The position numbers and the translations under genes are program-made. From Pseudobutyrivibrio sp. (lineage in GTDB: Bacteria; Bacillota; Clostridia; Lachnospirales; Lachnospiraceae), in NCBI RefSeq assembly GCF_015057185.1, contig NZ_SVEV01000034.1, positions 1-34,003 on the forward strand: a stretch of 34,003 bases of DNA, given 5' to 3'. Shown in pieces: positions 22,710 to 34,003 of this stretch. Position 1 is the first letter of the stretch, and each line of letters begins with the position of its first letter. The notes below the pieces were generated by a model that saw nothing but the letters and a program-made list of their open reading frames with translations, ran no database searches and had not been told where the DNA came from.

Positions 22710-24161
22710 TTAGTTGAGTTTTGCCTCCATTAATCTCGACCAATCATCTTTATTATACTGTCGTTCCTGGAAATTATTGAATGAATTCCTATTCTTAGCT
22801 TGGTCGGTGCTAGTTTGTTTTTTAGCGCTTCCACCTTGTTCAATCATCCAACAGATATAACCAACTTTATCATTAATAATTTCTTTTGAGGTATCATCAA
22901 GTCTTCTTTTGAATTCAGGAATAATCTGCATCATATAGACTGCATCTTTATCATTACGCTTTGCACATTGGAAGATTCTTGAGATTTCCTCATCAGTAAA
23001 CTGTATCTTTGAAGCATTGAAAAATAATTTCAATTGCTCTTCCAATGGATCTGTTTCCTTTTCTTCTATAACATCTACAATTTTTGCGGTGGTATCTATA
23101 TAGTTCTTTTCCTGAATTTTAAAACGATACCCCACATGTTTATTGCTTTCATATCTTGCTTCATACTCAAATGTAAAATCACATTCTGCAACAGAATTGA
23201 TACTGTTCCTTGCTGGTGATAATACACGTCTATCTATTTCTGCCTTTGGATAGCTTTCAGGAATAGAGAATTGATGCTTTAACTCTTCAACTGAAATATC
23301 AAACATTCCCGGTGTGGCAGCTGGATACTCTTTATATCGTTTCCTATTCTCTAAATACCAATATAAAGCAATCGTATATTTTCCTTGTAATTGGGTAATT
23401 ACTTCTAACTGTCCATAAGCACCATGAACAATTCTTGAACATAAAGCCAAATCTTTAAAGAAATCCGTTGGCGCAAACTCTATATATGCTTCTTCTCCTC
23501 GATTACCTTTATGATGTCTTAAAATACTAAACCAAGGAATTTCGATTTCATCATCACCATTAGGACCTAGGTCAGCAAAAATTAAATGTCGTTCCTTTAA
23601 TTTTACTGCGCCCTTCTTAAAAATCTTATATATATATTTGGGATCTTCATGTCTTGAATACTTGGCAAATGTAGATGGCTCAATTTTATATGTTTTGTTC
23701 TCCGGAAATGAAGACATTGTCCCTAAAATTGCATCAAATACTATATTCTCATCAGAAGTAAACTCCATTTTACAATGCATAATAAGGGCATCTGTTCTAT
23801 ATGCAATGCCTATTCCGCCCTTCTTTAATGGATGTTTATTATCTTGAAGTGCTAACAACTTTAGCAGCGTCTCATGGGAATTATCATTGAATGTTTCTAC
23901 AAGATTTTCAATAGAAACTGCTTCTTTAACAAATTCTATAATCTTTGCTTCATCTTCATTGATAATAGCATTTCCATTTTCATCAACTATGTCAGCTCTA
24001 ACTTCATAAGTATCAACAACACGACCTGTGCTAGTTGCTACTGTTTGATGCTCCACTTGTCCCAATTGGCTTCCTAATGGATATTCATCATCATAGAACA
24101 TACCTGTTGCGGGATCTATCTCTCTGTAGTTTCCATTTTCATCCTGCTTACGAATTGCCAT
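22710..24161 (-). CDS. rep: Rep_3-type replication initiator protein
   Basis: 483-aa plasmid-type initiator. The core resembles the tandem winged helices of Rep_3/RepB proteins: a first region (about 100-220) and the diagnostic second region LQGKYTIALYWYLENRKRYKE followed by FDISVEELKHQFSIPESYPKAEIDRRVLSPARNSINS. It would bind the iterons just upstream and recruit the host helicase to open the origin; as a dimer such proteins also repress their own promoter. The N-terminal ~90 residues and the basic, Asn/Gln-rich C-terminus are lineage-specific extensions. The start at 24161 has GGGAGA 6-7 nt upstream, and a promoter-operator with a dyad lies just before it. Located in the window beside parA, iterons and an rRNA operon, it points to an independent replicon. 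Confidence 0.88.
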   Translation of the reverse strand: MAIRKQDENGNYREIDPATGMFYDDEYPLGSQLGQVEHQTVATSTGRVVDTYEVRADIVDENGNAIINEDEAKIIEFVKEAVSIENLVETFNDNSHETLLKLLALQDNKHPLKKGGIGIAYRTDALIMHCKMEFTSDENIVFDAILGTMSSFPENKTYKIEPSTFAKYSRHEDPKYIYKIFKKGAVKLKERHLIFADLGPNGDDEIEIPWFSILRHHKGNRGEEAYIEFAPTDFFKDLALCSRIVHGAYGQLEVITQLQGKYTIALYWYLENRKRYKEYPAATPGMFDISVEELKHQFSIPESYPKAEIDRRVLSPARNSINSVAECDFTFEYEARYESNKHVGYRFKIQEKNYIDTTAKIVDVIEEKETDPLEEQLKLFFNASKIQFTDEEISRIFQCAKRNDKDAVYMMQIIPEFKRRLDDTSKEIINDKVGYICWMIEQGGSAKKQTSTDQAKNRNSFNNFQERQYNKDDWSRLMEAKLN

Positions 24162-24172
24162 ATTTATCTCCC

Positions 24173-24237
24173 TATAATAATGGCATGATAATAATTTGCC
24201 ATGCCATCATTATAAGATAACCTACATTTCCTCGCAA
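24173..24237 (-). promoter_or_regulatory. rep promoter with overlapping inverted-repeat autorepressor site
   Basis: On the minus strand TTGCGA (plus 24232-24237), a 17-nt spacer and TATAAT (plus 24209-24214) form a promoter with a start near 24202. A 15-bp inverted repeat with one mismatch covers it: TATAATAATGGCATG at 24173-24187 and CATGCCATCATTATA at 24200-24214. Its TGGCA/TGCCA core is shared with the iterons (TTGCCA), as expected for a Rep-dimer operator. Confidence 0.72.
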
Positions 24238-24254
24238 CAACTTACGTTCAAAAC

Positions 24255-24754
24255 TTAGTGGAACTTTTGCCATTCCATTTCTTCAGATATAATTTAGTGG
24301 ATTTTTTGCCATCAAAATGGATTTTACTATTATTACAAACCCCTTTAAATAAAGGCTTTTTTTACCCTATTTAAAATAGTGGAATTTCTGCCACCATGTA
24401 TATCTAATGGCAACGACTTTGTTTGCCATCCAAACATACATATTATTTAATTTCCTCGATTTTACGGGATTTTTTAGTGGAAATTTTGCCATCATGTGTG
24501 GCCTATATGGCACATGTTTAATTTGCCATTTTTAGTGGAAATTTTGCCATTTGTATAATTCTATATCAATTATTCACCTATTTTATTGAATTTTTAGGCT
24601 AATTTGTCATTTTTAACGCCTATTATCAATGGCAAATCAACTCCTTGCCACTACTTAGTGGAATTTCTGCCATATGGTGGAATTTTTGCCAGCGTTGGTT
24701 GACTTGTCGCCATAGTTAGTGGAATTCCCGCCAGCTTTAGTTGATTTTTTGCCA
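24255..24754 (+). repeat. iteron array: candidate replication origin
   Basis: Eighteen-bp directly repeated sites, consensus TTAGTGGAATTTTTGCCA, start at 24255, 24294, 24376, 24474, 24532, 24655, 24674, 24695 (degenerate), 24716 and 24737, all in the same orientation. The last five are spaced 19, 21, 21 and 21 bp, about two helical turns. Between them lie half-site inverted repeats ATGGCAA/TTGCCAT (24407-24429), ATGGCA/TGCCAT (24507-24529) and ATGGCAA/TTGCCA (24629-24650). TTATTCACC at 24570-24578 is one base from a DnaA box. The region 24162-24897 has no gene; AT-rich stretches (24560-24600, 24815-24845) are candidate unwinding elements. Confidence 0.85.
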
Positions 24755-24855
24755 CATCAAATATGGATTTTTCCTTGATTTTATGGCGTTTTTTCAACCT
24801 CTGCTATACATACTATACACTTAATATACATATATATACTTTTAGCCAGCAAAAA

Positions 24856-24892
24856 ACAGGAACATAAACTATTTTCATAGCAATGCTCCTGT
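24856..24892 (-). terminator. terminator after the partition operon
   Basis: ACAGGA at 24856-24861 pairs with TCCTGT at 24887-24892, extended by CAT/ATG with one mismatch. On the minus strand T6 follows. It ends the parA-RHH transcript and insulates the origin and rep promoter. Confidence 0.7.
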
Positions 24893-33522: not shown

Positions 33523-33596
33523 ATTAGCGGCACAATTCAAACAAAAAGCTATTATTCCTTGAAATGATGGACTTTAATAAAAAAGCGAAAAACCCG

Positions 33597-33625
33597 TTGA
33601 CACTAGAGATTATGGGTGATATTAT
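33597..33625 (+). promoter_or_regulatory. rRNA operon promoter
   Basis: TTGACA at 33597-33602, a 17-nt spacer and TATTAT at 33620-33625 (overlapping TATAAT at 33623-33628 with spacer 20). A-rich upstream sequence (33575-33592) could act as an UP element. The start is near 33632, so the leader is about 300 nt. Confidence 0.8.
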
Positions 33626-33724
33626 AATCAAGCACTGAGGGACAGCAAGTCACACAGAGCAAAACGAAAAAGTAGATTGATAACTGAACAGTGAAACAAA
33701 CCTTGAATTAATACAAGTTAATTG

Positions 33725-33886
33725 GTAACAAGCAAGCTTGTTACTTACACAACCTTTTCTTTGAAAAGATTGTGAATTACATGTATCCTTGAAATTCATT
33801 TAGTTTCTAAGAAGAAACAAAACCTTTATTAAACGACAATGATTTTCTTTGAAAATCGTTGTCTAGTAAGAATCTTTGATTCTTAC
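33725..33886 (+). other. row of hairpins in the 16S rRNA leader
   Basis: Successive stem-loops: GTAACAAGC/GCTTGTTAC (33725-33744); a 12-bp stem with one mismatch, 33748-33759 with 33763-33774; a weak GTTTCT/AGAAAC (33803-33818); a 13-bp stem with one G.T pair, 33835-33847 with 33851-33863; and GTAAGAATC/GATTCTTAC (33866-33886). Three have the same C-TTT-G loop. Words CTTTGAAAA match the boxA-like element common in Firmicute rRNA leaders. The likely roles are antitermination or pre-16S processing. Confidence 0.6.
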
Positions 33887-33935
33887 ATTTGCAGTAAACA
33901 AGTCAGTTTTATACTGATTCGGAATTAAACTTTTT

Positions 33936-34003
33936 AACATGAGAGTTTGATCCTGGCTCAGGATGAACGCTGGCGGCGTGCTTAACACATGCAAGTCGAA
34001 CGA
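33936..34003 (+). rRNA. 16S ribosomal RNA, 5' end (partial)
   Basis: AGAGTTTGATCCTGGCTCAG, the universal 27F site, is at 33943-33962, seven bases inside the gene as in other 16S genes. The following ACGCTGGCGGCGTGCTTAACACATGCAAGTCGAACG is Clostridia-type. The 5' end is estimated at 33936. The gene runs off the right edge. The start of a conserved rRNA operon next to a plasmid-type replication module is the key context. Confidence 0.97.

Follow-up and report, generated by a model that had tools for sequence, protein, structure and literature searches.

A candidate origin of an rRNA-bearing, chromid-like secondary replicon in a Pseudobutyrivibrio contig

The 34,003-nucleotide stretch analysed here (the window) makes up the whole of contig C7, one of 62 contigs in a draft assembly of 3.25 Mb, and is bounded by contig ends on both sides. 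It probably represents the region around the origin of a secondary replicon of the plasmid type, a chromid or a chromid-like element, of a Pseudobutyrivibrio-group bacterium; the origin of an rRNA-bearing replicon of this kind is the reading that best fits the window. The initial annotation had proposed a candidate chromid, and this proposal is supported by a GC-skew switch close to the replication genes, the location of dnaA on another contig, a ParA most closely related to that of the published chromid PxyII, the precedent of the chromid BPc2, and the presence in nine other genomes of the genus of the same Rep family adjoining outward-facing 16S starts or leaders. The window adds to a known kind of rRNA-bearing secondary replicon; the recurrence of the arrangement across the genus is the newer part.

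The replication and partition module

The Rep_3 initiator, the iterons and parA claimed by the initial annotation are all confirmed, and the three calls are unambiguous (Table 1). Both winged-helix domains of Rep score above the Pfam cut-off, and a scan with a hand-set 17-mer consensus, allowing up to 3 mismatches, finds nine iterons, all on one strand, as against a mean of 0.23 and a maximum of 2 in 100 shuffles. The exact array is absent from the 27 other Rep contig pieces searched. The claimed DNA-binding partner of ParA stands as an open reading frame adjoining parA, and its DNA binding as a prediction from its model. The protein has no Pfam match; AlphaFold folds it, after a disordered N-terminal half, into a putative tandem ribbon-helix-helix made of two strand-helix-helix units (mean pLDDT 66.6; element order E97-104, H106-119, H123-139, H146-153, E160-167, H168-181, H185-201), whose top matches in the PDB are F-plasmid relaxosome chains, at a weak E=2.6e-3.

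Table 1. Features of the window (positions in nucleotides)
Feature	Position	Strand	Evidence or remark
Metabolic cargo: TrkA/TrkH-type potassium uptake; sugar ABC operon with AGE epimerase/HAD/PfkB/ROK; LrgAB; flavodoxin; DUF3793	109..14115	.	
rep, Rep_3-family replication initiator, 483 aa	22710..24161	-	Pfam Rep3_N E=6.8e-10, Rep3_C E=1.6e-08
Array of nine 17-bp iterons; presumed origin and target of Rep	24256..24754	+	Upstream of rep start
parB-like gene, predicted ParA partner, 202 aa	24898..25506	-	59% identity to PxyII homologue
parA, partition ATPase, 262 aa	25506..26294	-	Pfam AAA_31 E=1.4e-30
AT-rich intergenic stretch with skew sign change; candidate centromere or second origin part	26300..27040	.	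GC 0.265 in 26001-27000 bin; putative function
EAL-domain gene between par module and 16S	32278..33522	+	Pfam EAL E=4.5e-57
16S upstream leader (rrn promoter/leader region)	33571..33934	+	Leader query matches across genus
16S rRNA gene 5' end, reads away from rep, cut by contig end	33935..34003	+	Rfam SSU_rRNA_bacteria, 58.9 bits

By analogy with its family, the Rep_3 protein would bind the iterons lying upstream of rep and open the origin at that site, while ParA and its ribbon-helix-helix partner, again judging from their families, would segregate the copies. Replication forks running outward in both directions would leave a switch in GC skew, and such a switch is present: the skew goes from about -0.2 to mostly positive values across 25-28 kb. 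It had been predicted near 24.2-24.8 kb; since the change occurs between 25 and 28 kb, the switch lies close by, at and just past parA. A switch of the same sense is seen at 16 of the 16 Rep loci compared, several of which have a skew near zero on one side, and GC skew is partly confounded with gene direction. A DnaA-type origin in the window was considered and rejected. The 12 TTATCCACA-like sites (up to 1 mismatch) compare with an expectation of 12.6 and none falls within 22.7-27 kb, so that there is no case for such an origin here.

The rRNA end, the cargo and the rest of the genome

The 16S gene that had been placed 7.6 kb past the module is indeed seen there, at 7.6 kb from the start of parA and 9.8 kb from that of rep. 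Its bases correspond to model positions 1-69 and are 100% identical to positions 1-69 of the 16S of Pseudobutyrivibrio xylanivorans MA3014. Since just these first 69 bases are in the window, we infer the complete rRNA operon. The leader together with the 69 bases (query 33571-34003) has matches in 28 of the 29 genus genomes, and a tRNA search of the window found none. Such an operon, with its 16S start facing away from rep, would be read in the direction of the replication fork; it may raise rRNA gene dosage next to an origin and attach a cost to loss of the replicon.

Ordinary metabolic genes were also found around the module, as claimed. Several left-arm cargo genes appear, from sequence relationships, to be main-chromosomal in related species, with relatives on the largest contigs of three other genomes (G002, G009 and G011). 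Two ideas about the gene content were dropped. The potassium-uptake genes were considered as essential cargo of C7 and rejected because a second member of the TrkH family lies on contig C47; the EAL gene was considered as a marker of rRNA-bearing secondary replicons and rejected because its relatives occur on many contigs, including the main contig of G011. In composition the window has a GC content of 0.355, 2-4 points below the 0.376-0.394 of four stretches sampled from the same genome. Its dinucleotide distance to three of these stretches is 0.036-0.039, below the 0.044-0.059 measured among reference stretches (three pairs), and to the fourth 0.069, above that range. A single dnaA match was obtained in the genome, and it falls on contig C46 and not on C7; a 16S start is present on C46 too, at a distance of 48 kb from dnaA.

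Recurrence of the rep-16S pairing in the genus

Rep proteins of this family are present in 16 of the 29 genus genomes (E<=1e-20). The 24 Rep rows were reduced to 22 loci by removing G002:C1:126522, a second copy, and G002:C1:74859 (30% identity, with a stop), both belonging to the same 90-kb element. At 11 of these 22 loci rep has a 16S start or leader no more than about 10 kb away, a count in which four loci on contigs of 4.8-10.7 kb (G027 C84 and C145, G023 C146, G024 C21) were scored as without rRNA and the others were read for about 10 kb on each side where the contig allowed, except that at G008:C41 and G028:C21 the full query set covered 4-6 kb on one side and a smaller set 10 kb. If 2, 4 or 8% of a genome is assumed to lie near a 16S start, the probability of 11 in 22 is 1e-13, 2e-10 or 3e-7, respectively, for loci that are not independent of each other. 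The pairing is seen on named contigs of Pseudobutyrivibrio sp. ACV-2, Pseudobutyrivibrio sp. 49 and P. xylanivorans DSM 14809.

All 13 leaders found on Rep contigs read away from rep; 12 are within 10 kb of it and one is 65 kb off, at the far end of G028:C42. This set excludes an rRNA piece at 133-137 kb of the MA3014 record, which points toward rep and lies beyond a chimeric junction and a run of 2500 N. G007, G014 (where the leader is a 43-99-base piece), G017 and G028:C30 have a leader without the 16S itself, G005:C135 has a leader only at its left end and 28 bases of 16S at its right end, and none of the 28 Rep contig pieces matched 23S or 5S. On the 33-kb contig G013:C26, rep/par and a 16S start occur together with 13 tRNA genes, which lie 30 kb from rep and read toward it; as they resemble the tRNA run behind an rRNA operon of MA3014, an operon facing rep may lie past the contig end.

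Repeated rRNA genes are known to break or mis-join short-read assemblies, probably also in the MA3014 record, and the 16S end of C7 might be suspected of being an artefact of this sort. We consider this very unlikely, as the same pairing is found in the assemblies of other species, where two of the contigs have an outward leader at each end, and as the independent assemblies of G028:C42 and MA3014 agree on the order 16S-rep-parB-parA-flavodoxin, except for a single 2-kb segment located at another place in MA3014. A second alternative is that C7 derives from an ordinary, dispensable plasmid with a recently acquired rRNA operon rather than from a chromid. According to a 2023 study of such plasmids (PMC10645730), rrn operons are commoner on Rep_3 plasmids than on other plasmids; in addition, Rep and ParA types have been reshuffled among contigs, and the TrkH of the window is not unique in its genome. 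However, the association of rep with 16S recurs in 10 of the 16 Rep-bearing genus genomes, in about six Rep lineages (counted by eye on the Rep tree), and the metabolic cargo has chromosomal relatives, which makes the plasmid explanation unlikely.

Outside this set, Rep at E<=1e-30 occurs in 5 of 250 genomes of a family-wide sample of about one genome per genus, two of the five being in this genus. rRNA was found beside none (0/6) of six Rep loci of Butyrivibrio/Lachnospiraceae, whose leaders may differ from the queries and four of which are on pieces shorter than 12.5 kb. Among plasmid records the window Rep has no match, ParA matches (E<=1e-20) are all below 60% identity, and the DNA query matches 140 records, the 20 listed showing only the 16S start.

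Relation to known replicons and to the MA3014 record

The nearest ParA relative of the window (89% identity) is encoded by PxyII, the published 88,942-bp chromid of MA3014. The two replicons share the parA-parB-rep order, a skew switch nearby and related parB-like (59%) and EAL (61%) proteins, the latter with an equally close relative on G011:C2. They differ in their Rep proteins, which are just 26% identical. rRNA and tRNA genes were sought on PxyII, and rRNA on G011:C2, and none were found. The replicon with rRNA operons named in the initial annotation for Butyrivibrio proteoclasticus B316 is BPc2, described as a chromid of 302,358 bp with two rRNA operons (PMC2914790); by that description it resembles the proposed replicon as an rRNA-bearing secondary replicon from a rumen genus related to this one, and is larger. 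Rep_3-type rrn plasmids are reported from Persicobacteraceae, Treponema saccharophilum and Aureimonas, with parAB in Persicobacter (PMC10645730). They too combine a Rep_3 initiator with an rRNA operon, but their chromosomes are described in the same study as having lost all rrn operons, whereas the genome studied here has 16S starts on other contigs, including the dnaA contig.

Rep genes related to that of the window are also found inside the published MA3014 chromosome. At the rep2 locus (1,136,822-1,147,450 of the chromosome record) a parA-parB-rep module is followed by a truncated 16S. Like G028:C42, it matches the window in having parA, a parB-like gene, a Rep of 56-57% identity and, 4-7 kb away from rep, the start of a 16S that reads outward; unlike in the window, the 16S is on the rep side and not on the parA side, and the MA3014 copy sits inside the chromosome record. 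It could be taken as an example of a secondary replicon that has inserted into the main chromosome or fused with it, for instance by recombination between rRNA operons, and the same might be proposed for the module of the window. Fusion across rRNA operons has been published for Cupriavidus necator KK10 (PMC8729776), and the chromosomal location of several left-arm genes in relatives would fit as well. However, an origin-type skew switch like that of the window is expected on a chromosome only at oriC, dnaA is on another contig, and the MA3014 example is itself suspect, given its chimeric junction and truncated 16S. We therefore regard integration as improbable for C7.

The MA3014 chromosome record likely contains rRNA-linked mis-joins. 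Separately, a secondary replicon of 90.2 kb appears to be entered in it about 1.5 times over. The reading of 1,052-1,125 kb of this record as plain conserved chromosome was considered: a G011 stretch with the same two genes aligns at those two places only, so that the region is not collinear, G011 being too distant to settle the question.

Returning to the rRNA-bearing secondary replicon, its recurrence permits a broader, still tentative proposal, to which we give slightly less than even chances: in Pseudobutyrivibrio the surroundings of secondary origins may be a preferred and repeatedly used home for rRNA operons, with about six Rep_3 lineages, different ParA types and operons that read outward, as a result of either the swapping of rep/par on a resident replicon or the repeated capture of operons. 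If this is true, rRNA repeats shared by chromosome and chromid would allow fusion or mis-joining, as the MA3014 record suggests. Short-read genomes of the genus, and one published closed genome, may conceal secondary replicons, or join them wrongly, at rRNA repeats. The 2023 study reported a specific acquisition of rRNA operons by Rep_3 plasmids and proposed this as a step toward the loss of chromosomal rRNA genes; its main text contains no occurrence of Butyrivibrio, Lachnospir or Clostridi (PMC10645730). A genus with several Rep_3 replicons, some rRNA-bearing and others not, would allow a stepwise test of that model, partly in cultivated strains.

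The replication module of C7 and its genome

The window is contig C7 in its entirety. In its right half a Rep_3 initiator gene with nine iterons upstream lies beside a partition operon of two genes, and the contig closes with the first 69 bases of a 16S rRNA gene, much as the initial annotation had read it. Both Rep_3 domains are present in the initiator (Pfam), and the number of iterons is far above chance (nine in the window vs 0.23 on average after shuffling). The proposed DNA-binding partner of ParA has no match in a Pfam search. AlphaFold (mean pLDDT 66.6, from four sequences) models this 202-aa protein as a disordered N-terminal half followed by two strand-helix-helix units, the arrangement of a predicted tandem ribbon-helix-helix protein. 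Its top matches in the PDB, with a weak score (E=2.6e-3), are chains of the F-plasmid relaxosome, which we take to be TraY.

C7 (34,003 bases) belongs to a draft genome of 62 contigs and 3,253,001 bases that is 99.83 % complete. The sole dnaA match in this genome is not on the rep-bearing contig but on C46. The final 18 kb of C46 are collinear with the chromosome of Pseudobutyrivibrio xylanivorans MA3014 up to the first rRNA operon, downstream of dnaA, and C46 terminates in another 16S start. The main origin therefore lies outside C7, which carries an apparent second origin.

A switch in GC skew had been proposed near 24.2–24.8 kb. It lies close by, at and just beyond parA: in 1-kb bins the skew stays near -0.2 over the greater part of the first 25 kb, whereas six of the seven bins that start at 27 kb or later are positive. 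Up to parA, 22 of the 26 open reading frames taken as genes are on the minus strand; beyond it, four of six are on the plus strand. The GC content of the window (0.355) is somewhat lower than in four sampled stretches of the same genome (0.376–0.394), and its dinucleotide profile is near three of these and more distant from one. A second origin on C7 is thus well supported; the word chromid is less so.

Coordinates of the features discussed, on C7 and on the MA3014 chromosome record (G002:C1)
Feature	Sequence	Position	Strand	Locus
GGDEF-TrkH open frame	C7	770-2428		
rep	C7	22710-24161	-	
Iterons	C7	24256-24754		
parB-like gene and parA	C7	24898-26294		
16S start	C7	33935-34003		
Apparent 1.5-fold element	G002:C1	1-137,570		L046, L047, L064-L070
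Repeated interval, first copy	G002:C1	1-43,275		
Repeated interval, second copy	G002:C1	90,204-133,477		
Second dnaA-like gene	G002:C1	65,556-65,759		L066
Other dnaA	G002:C1	1,000,956		
16S beside rep2	G002:C1	1,147,002-1,147,450		L048

Pairing of rep with rRNA in the genus

Members of the Rep family were found in 16 of the 29 genus genomes. The search returned 24 rows, or 22 loci after removal of two rows of one MA3014 element, and these loci were queried with several 16S leaders (the stretch upstream of the gene), 16S and 23S/5S. A 16S start or leader lies within about 10 kb of rep at 11 of the 22 loci, in 10 of the 16 Rep-bearing genomes. All 13 leaders on the 11 paired contigs are directed away from rep, 12 of them within 10 kb and one at 65 kb, at the far end of G028:C42. 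The other 11 loci, which include the MA3014 chromid PxyII and G011:C2, the second contig (102.5 kb) of a two-contig genome, are without a 16S start or leader nearby. None of the 28 Rep contig pieces gave a match to 23S or 5S, and none of six Rep loci from named Butyrivibrio/Lachnospiraceae contigs has rRNA nearby.

Outward leaders at both ends of G005:C135 (12.3 kb, L042) and G028:C42 (71.6 kb, L053, L098-L100) suggest that a single origin is flanked by two or more divergent operons. G013:C26 (33 kb; L074, L104) carries rep/par, with a 16S start at one end and 13 tRNA genes at the other. The latter, 30 kb from rep and transcribed toward it, resemble the tRNA run behind an MA3014 rRNA operon. 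They hint that a contig with rep can also bear core genes of translation, but equally that past its end there may be an rRNA operon directed toward rep.

With rep oriented to the plus strand throughout, all 16 Rep loci tested have negative skew past par and positive skew downstream of rep, the value on one side being small (0.03–0.07) at several. The pattern is consistent with replication that has long proceeded in both directions from the module. Since gene direction shows the same pattern, the two signals are partly one.

In a tree of 25 Rep proteins, with several deep forks unresolved and PxyII on a very long branch, the rRNA-paired Reps occupy about six positions interspersed with unpaired ones: G000:C7; G008:C10 with G022:C48; G028:C30; MA3014 rep2 with G028:C42; G005:C135 with G007:C12 and G014:C81; and G013:C26 with G017:C6. 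The adjacent ParA proteins are of clearly distinct types (25–34 % vs 53–89 % identity to that of the window). Ten origins inspected have their own repeats to varying degree, PxyII the least, and no other Rep contig was found to carry the iteron array seen in the window. Shared cargo is patchy: a potassium-uptake pair is common to C7 and G028:C30, LrgAB to C7 and G013:C26, and flavodoxin and DUF3793 to C7, G028:C42 and the vicinity of MA3014 rep2, and relatives of these genes occur on other contigs too. From the mixed Rep positions, differing ParA types and patchy cargo it follows that either a resident replicon with rRNA has exchanged its modules or capture of rRNA operons has happened repeatedly.

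Separately, one open frame of C7 fuses a partial GGDEF domain (residues 15–125) to a TrkH potassium transporter domain (136–533). By length, its 562 aa compare with 462–503 aa in 10 of 12 other TrkH rows from eight genomes, the remaining two being short pieces, both in G009.

Possible fusion at rRNA operons and the MA3014 record

The main rival explanation is that fusion at rRNA operons joins secondary replicon and main chromosome. Such a fusion has been described in Cupriavidus necator KK10 (PMC8729776), and at first sight the MA3014 chromosome record seems to contain another. On inspection, however, this record looks partly mis-assembled. A 90.2-kb secondary replicon, which has a Rep of its own and switches in skew at about 40 and 90 kb, seems to be written about 1.5 times, the repeated intervals being 99.998 % identical. 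The second copy breaks off within an open frame of 473 codons; the terminal part of a 23S gene comes next, and after it 2500 N and a 66-base piece of 16S. A second module, rep2, is followed by a 16S gene, 6.4 kb from parA-parB-rep, that aligns to base 449 by BLAST and to about position 546 by Infernal, with unrelated sequence past the aligned part. Natural fusion is a possible origin of these joins. The 90.2-kb element also bears another dnaA-like gene, an open frame of 473 aa that matches Bac_DnaA_C at E=2.3e-27.

Published chromids and acquisition of rRNA operons

Among 61 genomes searched, the closest ParA outside the window (89 %) is on an 88,942-base contig of a three-contig genome. By the lengths of this contig and of a 3,412,851-base contig, which equal the published chromid PxyII and chromosome of MA3014 (PMC7523725), the genome is taken to be MA3014. 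Like the window, PxyII has parA, a parB-like gene, rep (26 %) and an EAL gene, but searches of its sequence turned up neither rRNA nor tRNA. The replicon with rRNA operons that the initial annotation named for Butyrivibrio proteoclasticus B316 is BPc2, a 302-kb chromid with two of the six rRNA operons and the published precedent for rRNA on a secondary replicon of this kind (PMC2914790). Further chromids are reported from B. hungatei MB2003 (PMC5716241) and from B. fibrisolvens INBov1 (PMC6249431), and chromids and megaplasmids are called common in Butyrivibrio (PMC6912079). Among the matches listed (titles, abstract starts, passages), which include the chromid papers named here, no title concerns rRNA operons beside rep in Pseudobutyrivibrio.

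Going by what is known of these families, the Rep_3 protein would bind the iterons and start replication, ParA and its partner would segregate the copies, and forks would run outward, with the rRNA operon transcribed along the fork; what the window itself displays is the anatomy and composition. One study describes rrn operons as specifically acquired by Rep_3 plasmids, with copy number proposed as the reason (PMC10645730). The window fits an early stage of this path: partition genes and rRNA accompany the Rep_3 initiator, and a 16S start is still present on the contig with dnaA.
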